From the NCBI GenBank assembly GCA_020832415.1, contig JAFIES010000067.1, forward strand, positions 1 to 32,941: a stretch of DNA of 32,941 nucleotides, read 5' to 3'. This document shows positions 10,576 through 32,774 of this stretch, in pieces (within the stretch, counting starts at the first letter, position 1; each line of letters starts with the position of its first letter). The position numbers and the translations under genes are program-made. The stretch comes from Balneolaceae bacterium (GTDB lineage: Bacteria; Bacteroidota; Rhodothermia; Balneolales; Balneolaceae). The notes beneath the pieces are model-generated. The model worked only from the letters and a program-made list of their open reading frames with translations. It was not told where the DNA came from and did no database searches.

Positions 10576-11292
10576 TTACCCGAATACTCTAAAGATTCCG
10601 AAGAGGACTACGATATCCCTCAAAAATTCTGACATTTCTCTAACCACATTCTCTTTCTTCGGTACATAAACAATATCACCCGGCCGCACGATGAGAGGCG
10701 CTGAGTTCATCTGTCCGCTGTCCAGATATTCAAGCAGATCGAGTTTTACGTAATTTTCGGGTGATGCTTGCCTGTATAGCTTTACTTTACTCAAATCTGC
10801 AAGCTCAGTGTGCCCTCCCGCCGTGGCAATTAACCTGAAAATGGATGTTTGGTCAGCAACCGAATAGTTATCAGGCCGTTCAACCATTCCTATGATGGAT
10901 ACAATCATTGTATCCGTGTTACGGATTGATACCGTCAAGTTCAGATCTCCTCTTATATACTCCATCAATTTGAGTTCGAGAGATCGTTTCAGTTGTTCTT
11001 GTGTATAACCGGTTACAGATATTTCACCAACCAATGGAATAGCTATCGTTCCCACTCTTGATACAGTAGTAAGTGTGTTAAAGCTGGGTTGCTCCCAAAC
11101 AAGGATCTCAATCTCATCACCGGGCCGTATTTGATATGTTGTATCAGAAATTTGAACCTCTGATGCAGCTCGATTCAAAATTTCCACGTTCCTGTCATCA
11201 CTGATCGTACGGGTTGATGTGCAAGCCTGGAGAATCCCCAGGAAACAGATAAGCAGAAGTGTGGGATAATGAAAACGACGTGTATTTCTCAT
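10576..11292 (-). CDS. Wza-type polysaccharide export lipoprotein
   Basis: Predicted outer-membrane export channel subunit for EPS. I chose the ATG at 11292; a TTG at 11301 would add three residues. With this start the lipobox is ILQAC (Cys24). The poly-export domain begins at about residue 54 (YQIRPGDEIEILVWEQPSF), with the typical VGTIAIPLVGEISVTGYT, and is followed by one SLBB-like domain (MIVSIIGMVERPDNYSV through VRPGDIVYVPKK). The end, FLRDIVVLFGIFRVFG, is a hydrophobic or amphipathic helix like that used by Wza to span the outer membrane. At about 240 residues it is shorter than Wza (about 380), as is common for Bacteroidota-type homologues. First gene of its operon. Confidence 0.88.
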   Translation of the reverse strand: MRNTRRFHYPTLLLICFLGILQACTSTRTISDDRNVEILNRAASEVQISDTTYQIRPGDEIEILVWEQPSFNTLTTVSRVGTIAIPLVGEISVTGYTQEQLKRSLELKLMEYIRGDLNLTVSIRNTDTMIVSIIGMVERPDNYSVADQTSIFRLIATAGGHTELADLSKVKLYRQASPENYVKLDLLEYLDSGQMNSAPLIVRPGDIVYVPKKENVVREMSEFLRDIVVLFGIFRVFG

Positions 11293-11342
11293 GATATTCA
11301 ATACAATCTAAATTTGGTGATGTGATGCTGTGCCTCTTTATA

Positions 11343-25055: not shown

Positions 25056-28000
25056 TCAATTATCCACCAAAGGGGTATTTAATCTCGTGATAGTAGTGGC
25101 AATTGATTTATTGTTAGTTACGGTAAGCAGCAGTTTAAAATAGTCGTAGTTTTTGGGGATCTTCAGTTCTAAAACCGGACCTTCATGAATATCTCTTATA
25201 GCGAGGTGATTTCCATGCTCATCCTGTTTTACCAGCGACCATTCAAAAGAGTAACCTTCAGCCATCTGACCATCTACCCATCCCTTTTCATCTTTATAGA
25301 TCATTGAGTAGAAATGGTAAACGTCACTTTCATATAAACGTCTGGCAGGCTTCAGTATACGGACAGTATTATTCTCGTTGACGTTATTCGTTTCACTCAG
25401 GTGATGTTGTAGTTGAAAATATTCATTTTTTGGGCGGCCCTTTCGGTCTGTGATGCCATCGAAAGTAAGTTTATTACTCTCATGTTCATCTTGCCAGGAA
25501 GTCACGAAAAAGATATGATTAGAACCCCAAATTTGAGAATGAATTAAATTCTCTGTATTAATTTCGCTGAAGATAAATTGCGTTTCGATTTCCTCAAAAT
25601 AGGCCATTACTGAGTGCAGATGTTGATCGTCTTTCACTGTTAAACCAACGTAATCGATATCACTCACATTTTTAGCAATTAAATCTGCATGATATATCGA
25701 TAGTAAATTGACCTCAAGATCCACAATCACTGGTCGGGTAGAATCCATCTCTTTTATTCCTGAAACCAGATTACTCAGCCAGATTAAATAGGCGCGATTC
25801 TGGTACAGCAACTCCGGTTTATGGAAAAAATCTTTCTGATTATATAGGACATCATTTTGGATATTCCATGAGGAGATATGCCCGTTATTTTTATGCTTTT
25901 TAACCTCATTAAGAATCGATTCATGCAATTGAACTGCTTTCAGAGTGTCATTCATAAAATCAATTGACTCTGAAACCCTGAAACCAAATGAAACATCAAG
26001 TTCCAGCTCCCGGGAAATATTCAAAATGTTATATACATAAACTGAATTTCCCGTGATTTTAATAGAATCAAATCCAAGATTTTTAATTCGATCAAAATCA
26101 GACAGTAGTTTTCTCCGGTTCAATACATGATAGTTTTTCCGCCACTCATTACCGTATTTCAGGTTGATTCCTTTTGTCCCTTCTAATCTTGGTACTTCTG
26201 AGTTTGAATTGGAATTCAGTTCTCTGTTCGATTCAGAGACACTGTTTTCTAAAACTGGAAATGGCGTGAAAACGTAGTGCGGTACTTCCTTGTTCCTAAA
26301 TGAAGATTTTATGACCCGGTTTTCGGGGATGGTCCAGTCGAGATAGCCGTCAGGTTCCATGCCATCGGGCCAGTTTTTATCCACGCTGCTGTTAAAGTAG
26401 ATTACCGACTTAATCTCTGAATAGTTATTTTCAATTACTGTAAACGCGTTTTCAATCCATTCGTTTTGATTTCCGCCATCTTGTAACGTCCCAAATTCTG
26501 CAATGACGACGGGTGTTAGTGGCAGTTTCCTTAGTTCTTTGTGAAATGGACTATACAGGCTCTCAAAATCATACCACTGCCCGCCCTCACTAAACTCACC
26601 GTAATCCAGAATGTTAATACCAATCCAATCCACATATTCCCGGCCGGGATAGAATGCCGCTACGTTTTCCGGTTTCCAGGGGTTCCAAATCCAGATTACG
26701 TTATGGGCATCTCTGTTTTTGAAAATTTCATATGTATGAATCCATGCGCCTTTAAATGAAGATGCGGCCTGATCTCCAGACATATACCATGGATAAAACG
26801 GGTTGTCGAATTCATGCGCAAACCTCAAAAATATCGGCTTATCGAGATCTTTGAGTATATCTGCGAATTCCGAGATATATAAATCGAAAAAGCCGTTTAT
26901 GATCAGATCATAGAGATGATCTTCGCTGCTTATTTCATCCTCAAATGTGTTTAGCCACGGTTCCCACGTAATCATTGGGATAGACTGATTCAAATACACT
27001 GAATCAATCATCGCGTCGGGGAAACTTGACTCTATATCCTTATCCCACGCCAGGTAATGAGAAATAATGTCGAAATTTTCCTCTATCTGGTCAGATATAT
27101 CTCTTACAAGATCCATACCGGTAATTCCATCATCAAACCGGGGGGCAAAAATACCGACGTAGTTTATGACATTTTTCTCCTGCACTTCGGCTTGAACGCC
27201 TTCCCACTTTATATACTCCGTATGGTAAAAGTAACCACCTGATAACAGCGCAATGATAACCACCAGAGGGAGGGCTGCTTTTTGCCACGTGCTAAAGAAG
27301 AGATATTTCCCGGAGTTGAAAAAAGATTTCCTCGGAACAGCAAACTCAAAAGTAGCCTTTACCGGCTTCGGCTTTTCAAAAGCAAACACCAGTGTGTAAA
27401 ACATGAATGAGGCGTTTACCAATGCAAAACCCGACATAAAAACTGAAAAAGGGGTGAAATCTGCACTTAAGCCATAGATTACGGCAATAACCGAAATCAC
27501 TCCAACAGCGAGGTTAGGAACCAGTATTTTCCAGCTGGTGCGTTCATTGTCCTCTTTTGGAGTAGGCAAGTATGGGATTTTTTTTCGAGTTATCGTGTAA
27601 ACAAGCCCAATAATGTTAATCCACCACGTACACGCCTGAAGCAGCCCGCCCAGGAAATGAGTCCCCCACTCACTTTTATCCATCACCCACCGCTGCACAA
27701 ATAGCCTGATGCCCAAAACTGATGCCAAAACAGGGGCTACAATCAAACCAAAATTAATGATATTACCTTTCCACGGTGTAGCAGATGCAAATAGAGAAAT
27801 GATTGGGATTAAGAAACAGATCAGAAAAACCAAACCTGAAAGGTAGTGAAGTGGTAAGATTCCAAAATGTATTTTTTGCCGCCAGGTAAGCTTGTTATAA
27901 AGTTTCGGAAAAACAGAGACCAGCAGTTCCAGGGTGCCTCGAGACCATTTTAACTGCTGTTTGTAGTATGAGGTAAGCGATCCGGGCACAAGCCCTTTTG

Positions 28001-28847
28001 TAAAAACTTTCGGAACATAAATCGACTTCCACCCTTTTGCGTAAAGCTGCATTGCGGTATGCATATCTTCCGATAAACCCGCTGCATGACCACCGATTGA
28101 ATCAAGTGCTTTTCGCCTGAAAACGCAGTTTGCCCCTATGGCATTTACCGTTCCGTAGGTGTTCATTGACATCATCACAGGACCATAAAAATGAAAGGTC
28201 TGTTCGGCCGCAGCTTTGGCAACCAGTGATTCATCAACATTGTAATAGGCTTGAACAGATTGGACAAACCCGATGTTTTTATCTTCGAAATAGGGAATAA
28301 TCTCATCGAGGAAATCCTCTTTTGGCACATGGTCCGGATCGAGTATCAGGCATATGTCTCCCGTTGCCTGCTTGAGCGCATTGTTGATGTTACCTGCCTT
28401 GGCATCTATACGGTTATCTCTTGTGACATGCTTTATTCCGTTCTTCTCACAAAACTCCTTCAGATGCGCGTCATTTGCCTCATCACACAGGTAGGTAGTA
28501 TGCGGATATTTCATCTTTTGAATGGCAAGAAGAGTGCCTTTAATCATGTCATAGGGTTCACCGGGGAAATAGGTAGTAAAGACATCAACCGAAAGAATTT
28601 TGGTAAGCACCGGCTTCTCAGGAACAGAAATATCCCAGTAGTGATACCATATATAAATAACCCGAAAGCTGTCGAATGATAATAGGCCCATCAACATCCA
28701 GTAGAGTAATTTATGATCGATGAACTCGGGTGTAAGAAACCAATAGAAAAAATTAACGATACTCAGCAGCCCGAGAACGATTAAGATTCTCAGTGTCAGC
28801 TTCTCATTTGCTGTAGGCTCTTTTATGATTTTGTTATTTGAGCTCAC
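25056..28847 (-). CDS. Cellulose-synthase-like GT2 fused to a GH26-like domain and a degenerate TIM barrel
   Basis: A 1263-residue inner-membrane protein. The GTG start overlaps the preceding gene's stop (GTGA, 28844-28847), so translation is coupled. Residues 1-70: two helices. Residues about 84-310: GT2 domain with LDPDH (Asp170, Asp172), SEDMH (Asp261) and QQLKW (297-301), in which Lys replaces the Arg of QxxRW. Several helices follow to about 490; there is no PilZ domain. A last helix (about 523-540) leads to a GH26-like domain (about 560-850) with RFAHE (Glu679, acid/base) and VVIAEFG (Glu784, nucleophile), both intact. A second clan-A-like barrel (about 888-1145) has SWNIQND where a WNxGNE motif is expected (Asp999), with Glu1095 a possible nucleophile. 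A beta-rich domain ends the protein. It probably makes and trims a beta-glycan such as mannan or glucan. Confidence 0.85.
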   Translation of the reverse strand: MSSNNKIIKEPTANEKLTLRILIVLGLLSIVNFFYWFLTPEFIDHKLLYWMLMGLLSFDSFRVIYIWYHYWDISVPEKPVLTKILSVDVFTTYFPGEPYDMIKGTLLAIQKMKYPHTTYLCDEANDAHLKEFCEKNGIKHVTRDNRIDAKAGNINNALKQATGDICLILDPDHVPKEDFLDEIIPYFEDKNIGFVQSVQAYYNVDESLVAKAAAEQTFHFYGPVMMSMNTYGTVNAIGANCVFRRKALDSIGGHAAGLSEDMHTAMQLYAKGWKSIYVPKVFTKGLVPGSLTSYYKQQLKWSRGTLELLVSVFPKLYNKLTWRQKIHFGILPLHYLSGLVFLICFLIPIISLFASATPWKGNIINFGLIVAPVLASVLGIRLFVQRWVMDKSEWGTHFLGGLLQACTWWINIIGLVYTITRKKIPYLPTPKEDNERTSWKILVPNLAVGVISVIAVIYGLSADFTPFSVFMSGFALVNASFMFYTLVFAFEKPKPVKATFEFAVPRKSFFNSGKYLFFSTWQKAALPLVVIIALLSGGYFYHTEYIKWEGVQAEVQEKNVINYVGIFAPRFDDGITGMDLVRDISDQIEENFDIISHYLAWDKDIESSFPDAMIDSVYLNQSIPMITWEPWLNTFEDEISSEDHLYDLIINGFFDLYISEFADILKDLDKPIFLRFAHEFDNPFYPWYMSGDQAASSFKGAWIHTYEIFKNRDAHNVIWIWNPWKPENVAAFYPGREYVDWIGINILDYGEFSEGGQWYDFESLYSPFHKELRKLPLTPVVIAEFGTLQDGGNQNEWIENAFTVIENNYSEIKSVIYFNSSVDKNWPDGMEPDGYLDWTIPENRVIKSSFRNKEVPHYVFTPFPVLENSVSESNRELNSNSNSEVPRLEGTKGINLKYGNEWRKNYHVLNRRKLLSDFDRIKNLGFDSIKITGNSVYVYNILNISRELELDVSFGFRVSESIDFMNDTLKAVQLHESILNEVKKHKNNGHISSWNIQNDVLYNQKDFFHKPELLYQNRAYLIWLSNLVSGIKEMDSTRPVIVDLEVNLLSIYHADLIAKNVSDIDYVGLTVKDDQHLHSVMAYFEEIETQFIFSEINTENLIHSQIWGSNHIFFVTSWQDEHESNKLTFDGITDRKGRPKNEYFQLQHHLSETNNVNENNTVRILKPARRLYESDVYHFYSMIYKDEKGWVDGQMAEGYSFEWSLVKQDEHGNHLAIRDIHEGPVLELKIPKNYDYFKLLLTVTNNKSIATTITRLNTPLVDN

Positions 28848-30172
28848 TGGTTATTTAAAACATAAAATGGAGTATTAGTGGTGGCGTAGGTGCCATCATG
28901 ATTGTATATGTAGGCGAATATTCTGTAGGGCCCCTCTTTTAGAGGAGCACGGAAGGTTGTTTCGTTTTTATCAAAACTGTTGAAGGTATCAATTGGCTTA
29001 TAATTGCTGACCACGATCTCATCTCGATCGCTAAACCAGGCTTCCGGATATATTTCCCAATCAATACGCAGGCTGTCACTGTAATTATTGTCGAAAACTA
29101 TTTCGGCTTGGCTTAATTCACCCGGTACAAAAATGATATTCTCATAAGCCCTTTTACTGTTTACTGTCATGTATTTCATGTCGCTCATTTGAGGGGTGAT
29201 GTTCGATTCACTCCAGAGCGATTTTATGGCATTTATACTTTCTGATTTTTCCCCATCTCTGAAGAGGCTGAACCAGGTATGCGTACGCTCAAGCTTTGTG
29301 CCCCAATAGAAAAAAAGAGTTCCAAGACTTGCTGAATCTTCATTCCCCAAAAACATGCCACTTCTTGATTTGTATGAATCAGATTTTATGGAACTTACAG
29401 GCTCTATGGGTGCACCCCAGGAAGTAGTTTGTATTTCCCAGGGTCCGTCCGGACCAAGTTCACTAAATAGGTAAGGTCTGGAACCGAATAAAAGAGAGAC
29501 TTGAGCTAAGTGAGAGTTGACAAATTTTGTATTACCAAATGTGTTGAATGAAACAATGTCCAGATCAGGAGAATGTATGTAAATACTGCTCATTGTCTTT
29601 CGGCCGGCCCCAATAATTGACGTTGAAACCGGATGATCGGGGTCGACCTCCTGAATGATGGATACCAGCTCGTTGAATGTTCTGATGAAATCATTTTTTC
29701 TAAAAACAAGCGGATAATTAAGCTCGTTGCCCAGGTTCCAAATCAAAAGTGCCGGGTGATCTTTATACTGATAAACCAGGTCCCTTACATCTTGCTTTAG
29801 AAGCACATTTTCATCTTCGTCTGCGTATAAATTGTATGAAGTACTGTAGGGCGGTATATAGATATCAACAATTACTGCTAAACCGTAATTGTGTGCTTCA
29901 TCCAATTTAGCCTTCAAATCAGAGCTGTTGAACACTCTGATAGTGTTACCACCTATTTCTGCCAGCTCTTTGAAGTGAGAATCTCCACCAGCCCCCTGAA
30001 TGTGAAAAGGCTCACCATTTCGTATAAGCTGAAAACCTGATTCTGTTTTTTCTACATAAACCGTTCTGTTTTCATCAACAGGTTTTTCTTTGTGGAGTAC
30101 CCGTACAACATTCATCCCCGTCAAAGAGATAATGATAATTAGTACCAGGCCTGTGTAGATAAGTAATTTCAA
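28844..30172 (-). CDS. Membrane-anchored clan-A glycoside hydrolase (GH2/GH5-like TIM barrel)
   Basis: A 442-residue protein with one N-terminal helix (about 3-24) and no lipobox, so it is probably anchored in the inner membrane facing the periplasm. The start is a TTG at 30172 with a strong AAAGGGG five or so bases upstream. The TIM barrel (about 45-320) resembles the catalytic domain of GH2: GNTIRVFNSSD, LLIWNLGNELNYP (Glu150, acid/base) and YLFSELGPDGPWE (Glu238, nucleophile). A beta-sandwich (about 335-440) follows, similar in style to the C-terminal domain of the downstream synthase. Its stop overlaps the synthase start, so the two are made together and probably act on the same nascent polymer. 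Specificity is unknown. Confidence 0.8.
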   Translation of the reverse strand: MKLLIYTGLVLIIIISLTGMNVVRVLHKEKPVDENRTVYVEKTESGFQLIRNGEPFHIQGAGGDSHFKELAEIGGNTIRVFNSSDLKAKLDEAHNYGLAVIVDIYIPPYSTSYNLYADEDENVLLKQDVRDLVYQYKDHPALLIWNLGNELNYPLVFRKNDFIRTFNELVSIIQEVDPDHPVSTSIIGAGRKTMSSIYIHSPDLDIVSFNTFGNTKFVNSHLAQVSLLFGSRPYLFSELGPDGPWEIQTTSWGAPIEPVSSIKSDSYKSRSGMFLGNEDSASLGTLFFYWGTKLERTHTWFSLFRDGEKSESINAIKSLWSESNITPQMSDMKYMTVNSKRAYENIIFVPGELSQAEIVFDNNYSDSLRIDWEIYPEAWFSDRDEIVVSNYKPIDTFNSFDKNETTFRAPLKEGPYRIFAYIYNHDGTYATTNTPFYVLNNQ

Positions 30173-30287
30173 GTTTCCCCTTTATTGATTTAAAGATTGT
30201 CGGATAAATCACTTTCATATTGAAAACATTGTGATCTCAGTTATTTAAAAGCAATAGGAGCACGCAGATATAAGCGTTGAAAAATCT

Positions 30288-31463
30288 TTAGAATATCGAT
30301 TCTTCACTGCCGGCTTTGATTGAGTAGGTATCTATGATTTCCGGTATTTCTAAACTGTTCAAACAGTCAGCCATAATGTCCAGTTGAGCCTGATTGATAT
30401 GATGATGAATGGGCAGTTCGAGCAATCGCATCTGTAGTTGCTCTGTGCCCGGAAATCCTTCCAGCCCAAAAGGCGCTTCAGTCCAGCCGATATAGCAGAT
30501 AATTCCTTTACTCAGTAATTCTTGCTGGATAAAATTTCTGGAATATGGCGGGGTTAGAATAGGCAAGCTGAAAGGCACATACCCTTCAATTAACTGATAC
30601 TTTTTTTGATCCGAATTAGCAGAGGATGTTGTGTTATGGGCATCAATTTTTGTTTGAGATAACCGATCGAATCCTATAGGAGTGAATGATTCCAGGTCAT
30701 CGATATGGTTCCACAAGTAGCCGACATTTTCTCTTCGTTTCAGGGTTATTTTCTCTAAATCAATCGTAGGGTAAAGCCAGTTCAATAACCGATCCATCCG
30801 TTTTACGGTAACTGTTTGTTCCTCATCGTAATCGATATAACCGATTACCGGAATGGTCGTTTTTTGCAGTACATTTTTGCCACGATTATAGTGGTTCAGC
30901 TTATATTTTATCCTTGAACCCAGCAGATGATAACCGGTTAATAAGCTTTTCACTTTTTTAGTAGTTGATGGCTGAAAGGGCCATGGTTTATTATTCAGAA
31001 TCAAAAAACCACCACAATGAAATTGAAGCATTTTACGAATGCTGAAAATTGTGAAGTCGCCGGTTGTTCCAAGTGTTTTGCCATTCAGGTGACTGTCCAT
31101 TGTATGAGAGCAGTCTTCCATTAAAAAAACATCCAGTTCGCTGGTCAGGTTTTTCAGCGGTTCCATATCCACCGGTACTCCAAAAAAGTGGACTGCAAAA
31201 ACCATCTGGGTCTGATCATCAATCAGGCCACGAATCTCATCAACAGAGAAATCGAGCTGTGTGGATACATCATAAAACTTAGTTTCATAACCTGCTGCCA
31301 TCACAAACCGATAGAGCTTGCCCGGGATGTATGATGGCATAATGATATTCGGTTTCGATTTTGGACGGTTGGCCTGAACCCATTTCATAACATCATAAAA
31401 GGCGTGTCCGGCATTGCCATAGTTGATAGGTTCTGGCTGGAAATTTCTTAAAAATTTTTTCAT
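30288..31463 (-). CDS. DegT/DnrJ/EryC1/StrS-family PLP enzyme
   Basis: Fold-type-I PLP protein of 391 residues, preceded by an AGAGGGA Shine-Dalgarno. Family marks are MPSYIPG near the N-terminus, MEDCSHTMDS (115-124; Asp117 for the PLP ring nitrogen) and FSIRKMLQFHCGGFLIL (140-156; Lys144 as the Schiff-base lysine). Most sugar aminotransferases of this family read GDxxxFSFHPxKxxxxGEGG; this one has the RK-x-L and GG variant seen in a divergent branch often found beside CelD-type acyltransferases. A nucleotide-sugar aminotransferase role is possible but not certain. It lies between the CelD-type gene (39-base gap) and the membrane glycosidase gene (115-base gap). Confidence 0.78.
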   Translation of the reverse strand: MKKFLRNFQPEPINYGNAGHAFYDVMKWVQANRPKSKPNIIMPSYIPGKLYRFVMAAGYETKFYDVSTQLDFSVDEIRGLIDDQTQMVFAVHFFGVPVDMEPLKNLTSELDVFLMEDCSHTMDSHLNGKTLGTTGDFTIFSIRKMLQFHCGGFLILNNKPWPFQPSTTKKVKSLLTGYHLLGSRIKYKLNHYNRGKNVLQKTTIPVIGYIDYDEEQTVTVKRMDRLLNWLYPTIDLEKITLKRRENVGYLWNHIDDLESFTPIGFDRLSQTKIDAHNTTSSANSDQKKYQLIEGYVPFSLPILTPPYSRNFIQQELLSKGIICYIGWTEAPFGLEGFPGTEQLQMRLLELPIHHHINQAQLDIMADCLNSLEIPEIIDTYSIKAGSEESIF

Positions 31464-31502
31464 CGTATCCCTCTTGATTTGTCTTTCGATATTATTGGAT
31501 CA

Positions 31503-32774
31503 TCACGCTCTGTTTAGCTTATTTCCTATCCGACCGAACATGAATAAGGTATAGTGATACAACCCCGCAGCTACTGAATGGTTTTTTGTTACGATATCTT
31601 TTCTAATGCGTTCATTTGCAGATCTTTTTTTCAGTCTTTGTGTTGCATTTACAATCTTGTTTAACAGAACCAGACGAGCTGATCCTGTTGATATTTCAAT
31701 GGTACTATTCTGATTGATTTTGTTGGCCAATCGCTTTTTGTACACTTCGTTTCCACGAAGAAAGTCGAATGTAAAGTTCGCTTGCACAGCCTCCCTGATA
31801 ATGGCTGCATTCAAAATTTTTCCGGGGCCAATATGAATCAGCGGGGATGTCATATCCATACCACCATGTTGCAGATACATTTGGTTGTTATAGATAATTA
31901 CAATACCCATAGCTACTGAGCTTGCAATTTCACTTGCTTCTGCCGGTAACAGCGCATAGATCCGGATGGAATCTTTACTCTGTAATTTTTTGCACGTTTC
32001 CAGGAAGAAATTTTTCATGCTTTTTTGTGAAAATGTACCGGGGAACCCTTCTCTGTTCCATTGATCCTGATGCAATTCGATTAACTGATTTAGATGGAGT
32101 TCAAAATTCTCACTGCGATCTATCATCTCTATGCGGAATACATTGTCTTCAGTGCGTTCAATTTTTCTGAGACTTTTCTGTACATTTTTTCTCTCGTTAC
32201 CGGATAGTTTTTTTAAATACCCTCTCCATCCACTCTCTTCTGAAGTAATACGCGTTGTTTTTGAAGCATTTTTGATCTCTATTTTTAAACCTGATGAAGA
32301 AAAATCTTCTTTCAACAGTGCAAGAGTTGAACTTCGCTCAGGTATCTCTTCAAGGATCATCGAATCAAACAGCACTTCGTTCTTTATAAAAACCATCAGA
32401 TGTTCATAGAAAGAGACGATATACTTATCCAGTATCAAAAATTGCAGATAATCGGAGTACGCATTTGTGCCCAATAATGGCCCATCCCTGGTCTTTCCCA
32501 CATTAGAGCCAATCAAGCGAAGAGTTGTGTAGGATGTGATTCCAAACAGCGGGTACCTGTCTGAAAAAAGTGGGGCTATTCCTGCTATTTTATCTTCATC
32601 ATAGAGAACAAAAATTTGAAGCTTCCCATAATCACCGAAATATTTCCACCAGGTTCGGTTCCAGTCAAATGTTTGAAAAACATGAGAATTTGTTTGTTCG
32701 CATAACAGATTCCACTCTGTCTCCAAATTGTCAAACTCTGTATTTGTATTGATTACCGTATGTCTGATATTCAT
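31503..32774 (-). CDS. CelD/BcsL-type (Acetyltransf_6) GNAT acyltransferase
   Basis: A 423-residue cytosolic protein and paralogue of the one at 18278-19600. Shared features are FQTFDWNRTWWKYFGDYG (about 35-52), SGNERKNVQKSLRKIER, LIELHQDQWNREGFPGTFSQKSMKNFF and the C-terminal FDFLRGNEVYKKRLANK. The family joins two GNAT-like halves, as FemAB does, and is common in cellulose and EPS loci, where acylation of sugars or lipid-linked intermediates is suspected. It is the first complete gene of the minus-strand set leading to the GT2-GH26 synthase, and GGAA lies upstream of its ATG. The acyl donor and acceptor are unknown. Confidence 0.8.
   Translation of the reverse strand: MNIRHTVINTNTEFDNLETEWNLLCEQTNSHVFQTFDWNRTWWKYFGDYGKLQIFVLYDEDKIAGIAPLFSDRYPLFGITSYTTLRLIGSNVGKTRDGPLLGTNAYSDYLQFLILDKYIVSFYEHLMVFIKNEVLFDSMILEEIPERSSTLALLKEDFSSSGLKIEIKNASKTTRITSEESGWRGYLKKLSGNERKNVQKSLRKIERTEDNVFRIEMIDRSENFELHLNQLIELHQDQWNREGFPGTFSQKSMKNFFLETCKKLQSKDSIRIYALLPAEASEIASSVAMGIVIIYNNQMYLQHGGMDMTSPLIHIGPGKILNAAIIREAVQANFTFDFLRGNEVYKKRLANKINQNSTIEISTGSARLVLLNKIVNATQRLKKRSANERIRKDIVTKNHSVAAGLYHYTLFMFGRIGNKLNRA

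Follow-up and report, generated by a model that had tools for sequence, protein, structure and literature searches.

Lichenase CtLic26A, a member of glycoside hydrolase (GH) family 26 from Clostridium thermocellum, is a degradative enzyme. Among synthases, the family 2 glycosyltransferases (GT2) RiGT2 and BgsA have been reported to make beta-1,3;1,4-glucan (PMC10374906, PMC6821405; here and below, PubMed Central (PMC) numbers stand for the passages concerned of these reports), and for the GT2-GH17 proteins of pseudomonads a cyclic beta-1,3-glucan has been proposed as the product (PMC10237404). The present analysis concerns a stretch of 32,941 nucleotides from a Balneolaceae bacterium (assembly GCA_020832415.1, contig JAFIES010000067.1, positions 1 to 32,941), in the following called the window, which carries on its minus strand a GH158 gene and, overlapping with it, a gene that encodes a BcsA-like GT2, a GH26 domain and, as a third part, a clan-A barrel whose acid/base position is occupied by Asp, in this order on a single chain. 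We regard the identity of the domains, the degenerate state of the third barrel and the coupling to the GH158 partner gene, taken jointly, as practically certain. That the two genes form a beta-glucan synthesis-and-editing unit at the inner membrane, with the whole mechanism given below, is in our view moderately probable. The features of the fusion gene are as follows, where counts of 22 refer to the window protein aligned to 21 relatives of full length (identity 82-39%).

25056..28847, minus strand: GT2-GH26-pseudoGH158 fusion gene, 1263 amino acids, GTG start
27378..28847, minus strand: BcsA-like GT2 synthase, residues 1-490, with helices 13-37, 46-70, 337-354, 363-388, 439-462 and 466-490 read as membrane helices
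28332..28340, minus strand: DxD motif D170-P-D172, both Asp invariant in 22/22
28065..28067, minus strand: D261 of the ED motif, catalytic base by analogy, invariant in 22/22
27945..27959, minus strand: QQLKW, residues 297-301, with Q297, K300 and W301 invariant in 22/22
27582..27599, minus strand: diverged gating-loop-like motif, residues 417-422 (compare FxVTxK), with Y417 and K422 in 22/22
27219..27323, minus strand: membrane helix 509-543, by which the chain is predicted to reach the periplasm (AlphaFold, hydropathy, loop charges)
26298..27170, minus strand: GH26 domain, residues about 560-850, closest to CtLic26A (profile E value 1.2e-38 to 2bv9; Z 27.7)
26811..26813, minus strand: GH26 acid/base E679, invariant in 22/22, aligned to the HE of CtLic26A
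26496..26498, minus strand: GH26 nucleophile E784, invariant in 22/22, aligned to the IAEF Glu of CtLic26A
25059..26195, minus strand: putative pseudo-GH158 barrel with C-terminal immunoglobulin (Ig)-like domain, residues 885-1263 (hhalign; fold match to 9p26)
25851..25853, minus strand: D999 at the acid/base position, where the partner GH158 has Glu; Asp in 19 of 22, with T, A and N once each in the others
25563..25565, minus strand: E1095 at the nucleophile position, not conserved, E 12, D 5, G 3, S 1 and K 1 of 22

The fusion gene is an unbroken open reading frame, with its start at 28847 and its stop at 25056. An assembly fusion or a frame error could be ruled out, because the three-domain protein is encoded by a single gene in isolates of several families (e.g. 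Arenibacter, Lutibacter, Pedobacter, Chitinophaga) and also in metagenome-assembled genomes; the architecture is kept in all 21 further full-length representatives, from Bacteroidota and Balneolota. Invariant in 22/22 are D122, D170, D172, E260, D261, Q297, K300, W301, E679 and E784. The initial annotation, made from the sequence alone, had placed a GT2, a GH26-like glycosidase and a degenerate third barrel on this chain of 1263 residues, and profile, fold and conservation tests uphold this. The residues it named for the GT2 (Asp170/Asp172, Asp261, QxxKW) and for the GH26 domain (Glu679, Glu784) were correct, the membrane helix it saw between these domains is predicted at 509-543, and the E-to-D replacement at the acid/base site of the third barrel is real and corresponds to D999. 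Profile searches and structure comparison agree in placing residues 560-850 inside GH26 and clan A, and no frame break separates the domains. The fusion gene of Gelidibacter sediminis (L035:7998-11759) lies in two frames (385 and 866 amino acids), either a broken gene or a sequencing error, and in G133 (L092:4646-9721) there is an in-frame TAA near the fusion start and the GH158 gene lies 159 bases upstream on the same strand.

The GT2 domain was matched by Pfam at residues 167-363 (E 2.7e-24) and, against solved structures, by BcsA (5ej1) at residues 11-357 (E 2.1e-35). Its top Foldseek match is E. coli cellulose synthase (E 7.7e-26), the NCBIfam CelA domain gives E 7.7e-50, and the GT-A active-site Asp residues of the D, DxD and ED motifs, D122, D170, D172 and D261, are present in 22/22. 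No PilZ domain was found among the Pfam matches of the fusion protein with E up to 1, and the linkage motifs taken from the literature gave no usable test on this GT2.

The GH26-like assignment can be refined to GH26 with a lichenase as the nearest relative. PF02156 matches residues 646-760 (E 2.9e-9, 37.2 bits versus a cut-off of 20.2), and residues 590-834 match CtLic26A ('endoglucanase H') with E 8.9e-29 against solved structures. The VIA-align superposition on 2bv9 covers 271 residues (root-mean-square deviation (rmsd) 2.9), and the identity in structural alignments with CtLic26A is 25-29%.

Pfam gave no match at E up to 1 for residues 885-1263. Comparison with the partner family by hhalign gave a probability of 98.5 and an E value of 3e-15, spanning both the barrel and the Ig-like domain. 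The predicted structure of GH26 plus third barrel has a mean pLDDT (predicted local distance difference test) of 82.0 and a pTM (predicted template modelling score) of 0.80, and in VIA-align its third barrel superimposes on 9p26 with Z 27.3 and rmsd 3.0 over 331 residues. The five GH158 entries as a group give Z 26.5-27.3 over 326-334 residues at 15-17% identity, and the next listed family follows at Z 22.6. The third barrel is thus GH158-like by profile and fold, and not of GH2 or GH5 as the initial annotation had suggested; the beta-galactosidase profile matches are weak (4ypj, E 0.0034). An origin as a duplicate of the fused GH26 is likewise unsupported (hhalign probability 0.4).

The acid/base Glu is present in 0/27 third barrels (22 aligned and 5 further distinct sequences), and W994 and W1118, the counterparts of partner residues W145 and W290 in the alignment, are kept in 22/22. 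The ratios of nonsynonymous to synonymous substitution rates (dN/dS) were calculated for three pairs (third barrel: 0.219, 0.071, 0.134; partner: 0.18, 0.143, 0.161; GH26: 0.155, 0.11, 0.084; GT2: 0.101, 0.058, 0.061). The GT2 is under tighter constraint than the third barrel; dS is 1.07 and 1.93 in two of the pairs, so that the ratios of these are rough. With this qualification, the range of 0.07-0.22 speaks against a functionless, decaying barrel, and the third barrel is probably a maintained, non-catalytic GH158.

The gene in front of the fusion gene had been left out of the initial annotation and belongs to the unit. Its features are:

28844..30172, minus strand: partner gene of family GH158, 442 amino acids, TTG start, with an N-terminal hydrophobic segment (read by eye)
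29723..29725, minus strand: partner acid/base E150, invariant in 23/23, aligning with the GNE of 6pal
29459..29461, minus strand: partner nucleophile E238, invariant in 23/23
28844..28847, minus strand: 4-base overlap GTGA, shared by the GH158 stop and the fusion start

The partner product matches 9oro (GH158(Pro)) with E 5.4e-53 and BuGH158 (6pal) with E 6.6e-45. N149 is found in 23/23 together with the two glutamates, and both glutamates also occur in 10/10 further distinct sequences. In BuGH158 the corresponding set N136, E137 and E220 is required, as Ala at any of these positions abolished activity (PMC7157763). In L042, L043 and L045 the hydrophobic segment of the partner ends in a lipobox-like Cys, as read by eye from the alignment.

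A pattern-based scan of genome contigs returned 29 loci, all titled as Bacteroidota or Balneolota lineages; being built on six short patterns of the window protein, the scan reaches close relatives only and is no guide to occurrence outside Bacteroidota. In the 24 loci used for neighbour analysis the partner always lies directly upstream on the same strand (24/24), and the frames overlap by 1-53 bases in 21 loci and are separated by a 1-base gap in 3, with starts chosen mechanically. Five loci remain, all of them pieces from contig ends; three have the partner upstream and two begin within the fusion gene. When the neighbours of 30 loci (29 distinct, since L095 equals L042 at 100% over 1258 amino acids) were clustered within flanks of about 8 kb or less, only the GH158 partner and the fusion gene were common to all. 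L095 was left out of the counts of further distinct sequences, and L134 repeats part of L092. The next most widespread neighbours were a tandem GH26 gene (9/30 loci) and a sulfatase-fold membrane protein (6/30); the former had merged with the synthase in the clustering and was counted apart, at 7 loci of type I and 2 of type II as defined below. All 14 sampled genomes with a synthase of types I-III are also among the GH158 profile matches (14/14). A promoter and terminator scan gave counts below or near the shuffled expectation.

At six loci (L024:498-4804, L025:861-5158, L032:11910-16135, L034:12134-16382, L044:186-4490 and L046:339-4624) the sulfatase-fold protein (828-836 amino acids, several hydrophobic segments) and the tandem GH26 protein (571-582 amino acids) are neighbours as a pair. 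The L024 sulfatase-fold protein has weak matches to LtaS and phosphoglycerol transferase, far below the cut-offs. This pair may decorate and edit the same glucan.

The system is rare, and its distribution is scattered. Among 395 genomes sampled from the phylum the third-barrel profile was matched in 10 at E up to 1e-10, and the GT2 profile in 16 at E up to 1e-70, 14 of which belong to variants I-III and two (G240, G309) are distant. The cassette is found in cultured Flavobacteriaceae, Sphingobacteriaceae and Chitinophagaceae. Variant I is the type of the window, GH158 followed by GT2-GH26-pseudoGH158. Variant II (G304, G259) has GH158, then a GT2-pseudoGH158 protein without GH26 (967 and 993 amino acids), then a tandem GH26 gene (562 and 559 amino acids), which is related to the tandem GH26 near 7/24 type I loci (48% identity, L090_5 versus L024_2). 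Variant III (G292, G407, G422 and two loci of G126; L107:4385-8337, L128:4327-8196, L129:4357-8570, L130:4558-8728 and L131:4790-8875) has GT2-GH26 proteins of 821-867 amino acids without the third barrel. At these loci a GH158 gene adjoins on the opposite strand and has both glutamates in 5/5, and the fused GH26 is degenerate, at least one glutamate being replaced in 4/5 (in L129 neither catalytic position was alignable and in L130 one was not). Variant IV (G240, L132:7299-10198) consists of a distant GT2 and a separate GH26 with both glutamates; no GH158 was found in the 16 kb around this locus and G240 is not among the genomes with GH158 profile matches, and the variant is perhaps an ancestral or a parallel form.

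In the GT2 tree variant II is nested in variant I (97/97) and variant III forms a single clade (99/98). The lineages rearrange the same parts, either with the fused GH26 lost and a tandem GH26 gene nearby, or with the third barrel absent and the fused GH26 degenerate. Where a dead GH158 is fused (I and II), a live GH158 lies directly upstream on the same strand, and where none is fused (III), it is adjacent on the other strand; as all type III loci fall in a single clade, they count as one evolutionary contrast and not as five. The Balneolota sequences are placed next to a single one from Prolixibacteraceae with support of 92/95, on a branch that is not starred; this is a hint of horizontal transfer. 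A search of plasmid proteins returned, as the best 30 of 529 records, sequences with 28-29% identity, rhizobial glycosyltransferases where annotated, and a megablast search of plasmids found nothing.

The GH158 family itself is more widespread (profile matches in 48/395 genomes at E up to 1e-20). Of ten examined neighbours of other GH158 genes, some are of degradation type, as TonB receptor and SusD (L100), GH3 (L105) and GH30 (L104). The remaining ones are not: two had no match, and the others were NamZ, a mutase, an efflux pump and a two-component regulator. L100 (2948-9275, G000:C101) holds the second GH158 of the window genome, in a catabolic-type locus.

The AlphaFold model of GT2-GH26 (pLDDT 79.1, pTM 0.59) contains long helices at 13-37, 46-70, 337-354, 363-388, 439-462, 466-490 and 509-543, plus one at 398-419, which by comparison with the helix order described for BcsA (PMC6821405) is read as an interface helix ahead of the gating loop. 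From this model we infer seven crossings, with the N-terminus inside and GH26 outside. The loop charges are in line with such an arrangement, as the mean number of Lys plus Arg per sequence is 4.9 in 417-438 and 3.9 in 491-508, the loops read as inside, and 0.3 (38-45), 0.9 (355-362) and 0.1 (462-466) in those read as outside; directly behind the last helix, in 544-556, it is 1.8. The predicted topology fits the proposal of the initial annotation that synthesis is cytosolic and processing periplasmic, and depends on 398-419 being an interface helix.

The mechanism that we favour can be outlined as follows. The GT2, to judge from its BcsA-like motifs and fold, would work in the cytosol on a sugar nucleotide, most likely UDP-glucose, polymerising it and threading the chain through its own channel. 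The seventh membrane helix would put GH26 and the third barrel in the periplasm at the exit of the nascent chain, where GH26 may cut or transglycosylate the emerging chain. The third barrel, with its cleft Trp residues kept and its acid/base Glu missing, could hold or guide the chain, dock the co-encoded GH158, or both, and the GH158 with its two glutamates would cut or join beta-1,3 bonds. The product is expected to contain beta-1,3 and probably beta-1,4 glucosyl bonds, because the preferences of the nearest characterised relatives (CtLic26A and BuGH158) point there, and may be of defined size or cyclic.

Several observations weigh against this mechanism. The CelA score of 169.6 bits is far below the curated cut-off of 699.1. 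QxxKW replaces QxxRW in 22/22, a motif reported to be fully conserved in BcsA, CrdS and BgsA (PMC6821405), and the residue at gating position 420 is Ile in 20, Thr in 1 and Phe in 1 of the 22 sequences, so that FxVTxK is not matched; QxxKW and the Ile in place of the gating Thr mean that sugar and linkage are not readable from the sequence. The hydropathy scan marks 398-416 too as a candidate membrane segment, and a crossing there would make eight helices and leave GH26 in the cytosol; the pTM of the underlying model is also only 0.59. GH26 holds mannanases and xylanases as well, and the variant III proteins whose fused GH26 has lost its glutamates indicate that GH26 catalysis is not needed everywhere. 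Finally, BuGH158 is less efficient on mixed-linkage glucan than on laminarin, by about two orders of magnitude in kcat/Km (PMC7157763).

The most serious alternative, which we nevertheless judge rather unlikely, is that the GT2 makes a long, exported beta-glucan for biofilm or capsule and that GH26 and GH158 are BcsZ-like editors clearing misdirected chains. A cognate endoglucanase, CcsZ, is known in a clostridial cellulose operon (PMC7710045). The window cassette indeed adjoins a large polysaccharide cluster (211-24900) with Wzx-, Wzy- and Wzz-type genes, a Poly_export gene (10576-11301), several glycosyltransferases, a deacetylase and acetyltransferases, and hydrolases of GH9, GH18 and GH5 lie within it, plus a longer protein that by eye is like the GH5 one. 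However, within the stretches examined this cluster is absent at the other loci, save for two genes at L021: the order acetyltransferase, DegT-like aminotransferase, GH158 and fusion gene (28844-32774 in the window) occurs also there and at none of the other 23 of 24 loci within the stretches available. Moreover, no exporter-like gene, BcsB- or BcsC-like ones included, is common to the loci (flanks of about 8 kb or less; no profile search was aimed at BcsB/BcsC).

A (gluco)mannan or another beta-1,4-glycan as the polymer, with GH26 as a matching mannanase, appears improbable. GH26 includes many beta-mannanases, several of them in the list of structure matches, and the window has the GH5 gene, which we take to resemble mannanases. 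Against this, the profile of the 22 GH26 domains matches CtLic26A at 1.2e-38, and all GH26 chains listed beyond CtLic26A and its fusion constructs are at 3.3e-12 or worse; chains named mannanase are at 5.1e-9 or worse, and two better-scoring entries carry no activity name. The coupled partner, furthermore, is of GH158, the characterised member of which, BuGH158, is an endo-beta-1,3-glucanase (PMC7157763). Least of all do we expect a third barrel that is still alive, with Asp replacing the acid/base Glu in a slow enzyme or a transglycosylase. Asp is found in 19/22 and the nucleophile Glu in 12/22, and the window protein has both. Yet the acid/base position is T, A or N in 3/22 and the nucleophile position D, G, S or K in 10/22, both glutamates are gone in L042, L043, L045, L090, L091, L092 and L093, and the Ala substitutions in BuGH158 quoted above abolished activity.

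Returning to the synthesis-and-editing unit, it is tempting to speculate that it corresponds, in Bacteroidota, to the periplasmic-glucan systems known from Proteobacteria, and that here the dead GH158 scaffolds or activates the live one, the three barrels produce beta-1,3;1,4-glucans of set size or in rings, and the neighbouring LtaS/OpgB-like transferase decorates them in some lineages. We put this forward tentatively, as a possible but on the whole doubtful extension. If true, the arrangement, with a dead glycosidase on a synthase as the docking site for its live relative, would be of a new kind. The unit as such, if the proposed mechanism is true, would couple glycan synthesis to editing within a single protein in yet another way, the parts of its dead/live pair of enzymes being rearranged between lineages. 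Since the cassette occurs in cultured isolates, the question of periplasmic or mixed-linkage beta-glucans in Bacteroidota is directly testable. Counts of GH26 and GH158 genes as a proxy for degradation of plant and algal polysaccharides may include biosynthetic members.

In the open-access PMC literature, among the matches listed, no description of a GT2-GH26 fusion or a GT2-GH158 cassette was found, in line with the view of the initial annotation that the architecture is uncharacterised. The GT2 resembles BcsA in its D, DxD and ED motifs, its membrane core and its top Foldseek match, and differs from it in having no PilZ match, QxxKW instead of QxxRW, a diverged gating motif and a score far below the CelA cut-off. 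RiGT2 and BgsA differ in that QxxRW is present, and no fused hydrolase is mentioned in the passages concerned (PMC10374906, PMC6821405). The fused GH26 shares fold and catalytic glutamates with CtLic26A and, unlike it, is tethered to a synthase. The partner has both glutamates of BuGH158 (6pal) and of GH158(Pro) (9oro and related entries), and the third barrel shows the same fold of barrel and Ig-like domain. BuGH158, however, belongs to a glucan utilisation locus (PMC7157763), whereas the present GH158 is coupled to a synthase to which, in addition, a copy lacking the acid/base Glu is fused. With no GH17 among its Pfam matches with E up to 1, the fusion protein is not a member of the NdvB/Orphan family. 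The GT2-GH17 proteins of pseudomonads may nevertheless be regarded as the nearest working analogue, and the comparison with NdvB-type fusions made in the initial annotation holds for the plan and not for the parts. The GT2-GH17 'Orphan' and NdvB-type proteins likewise unite a cytosolic BcsA-like GT2, a membrane channel and a periplasmic clan-A barrel on one chain, but there the barrel is a GH17 and N-terminal, as described in the passages concerned (PMC10237404), while here it is a GH26 placed C-terminally behind an extra membrane helix, with a degenerate GH158 as third barrel and, upstream, a GH158 encoded by a gene of its own.

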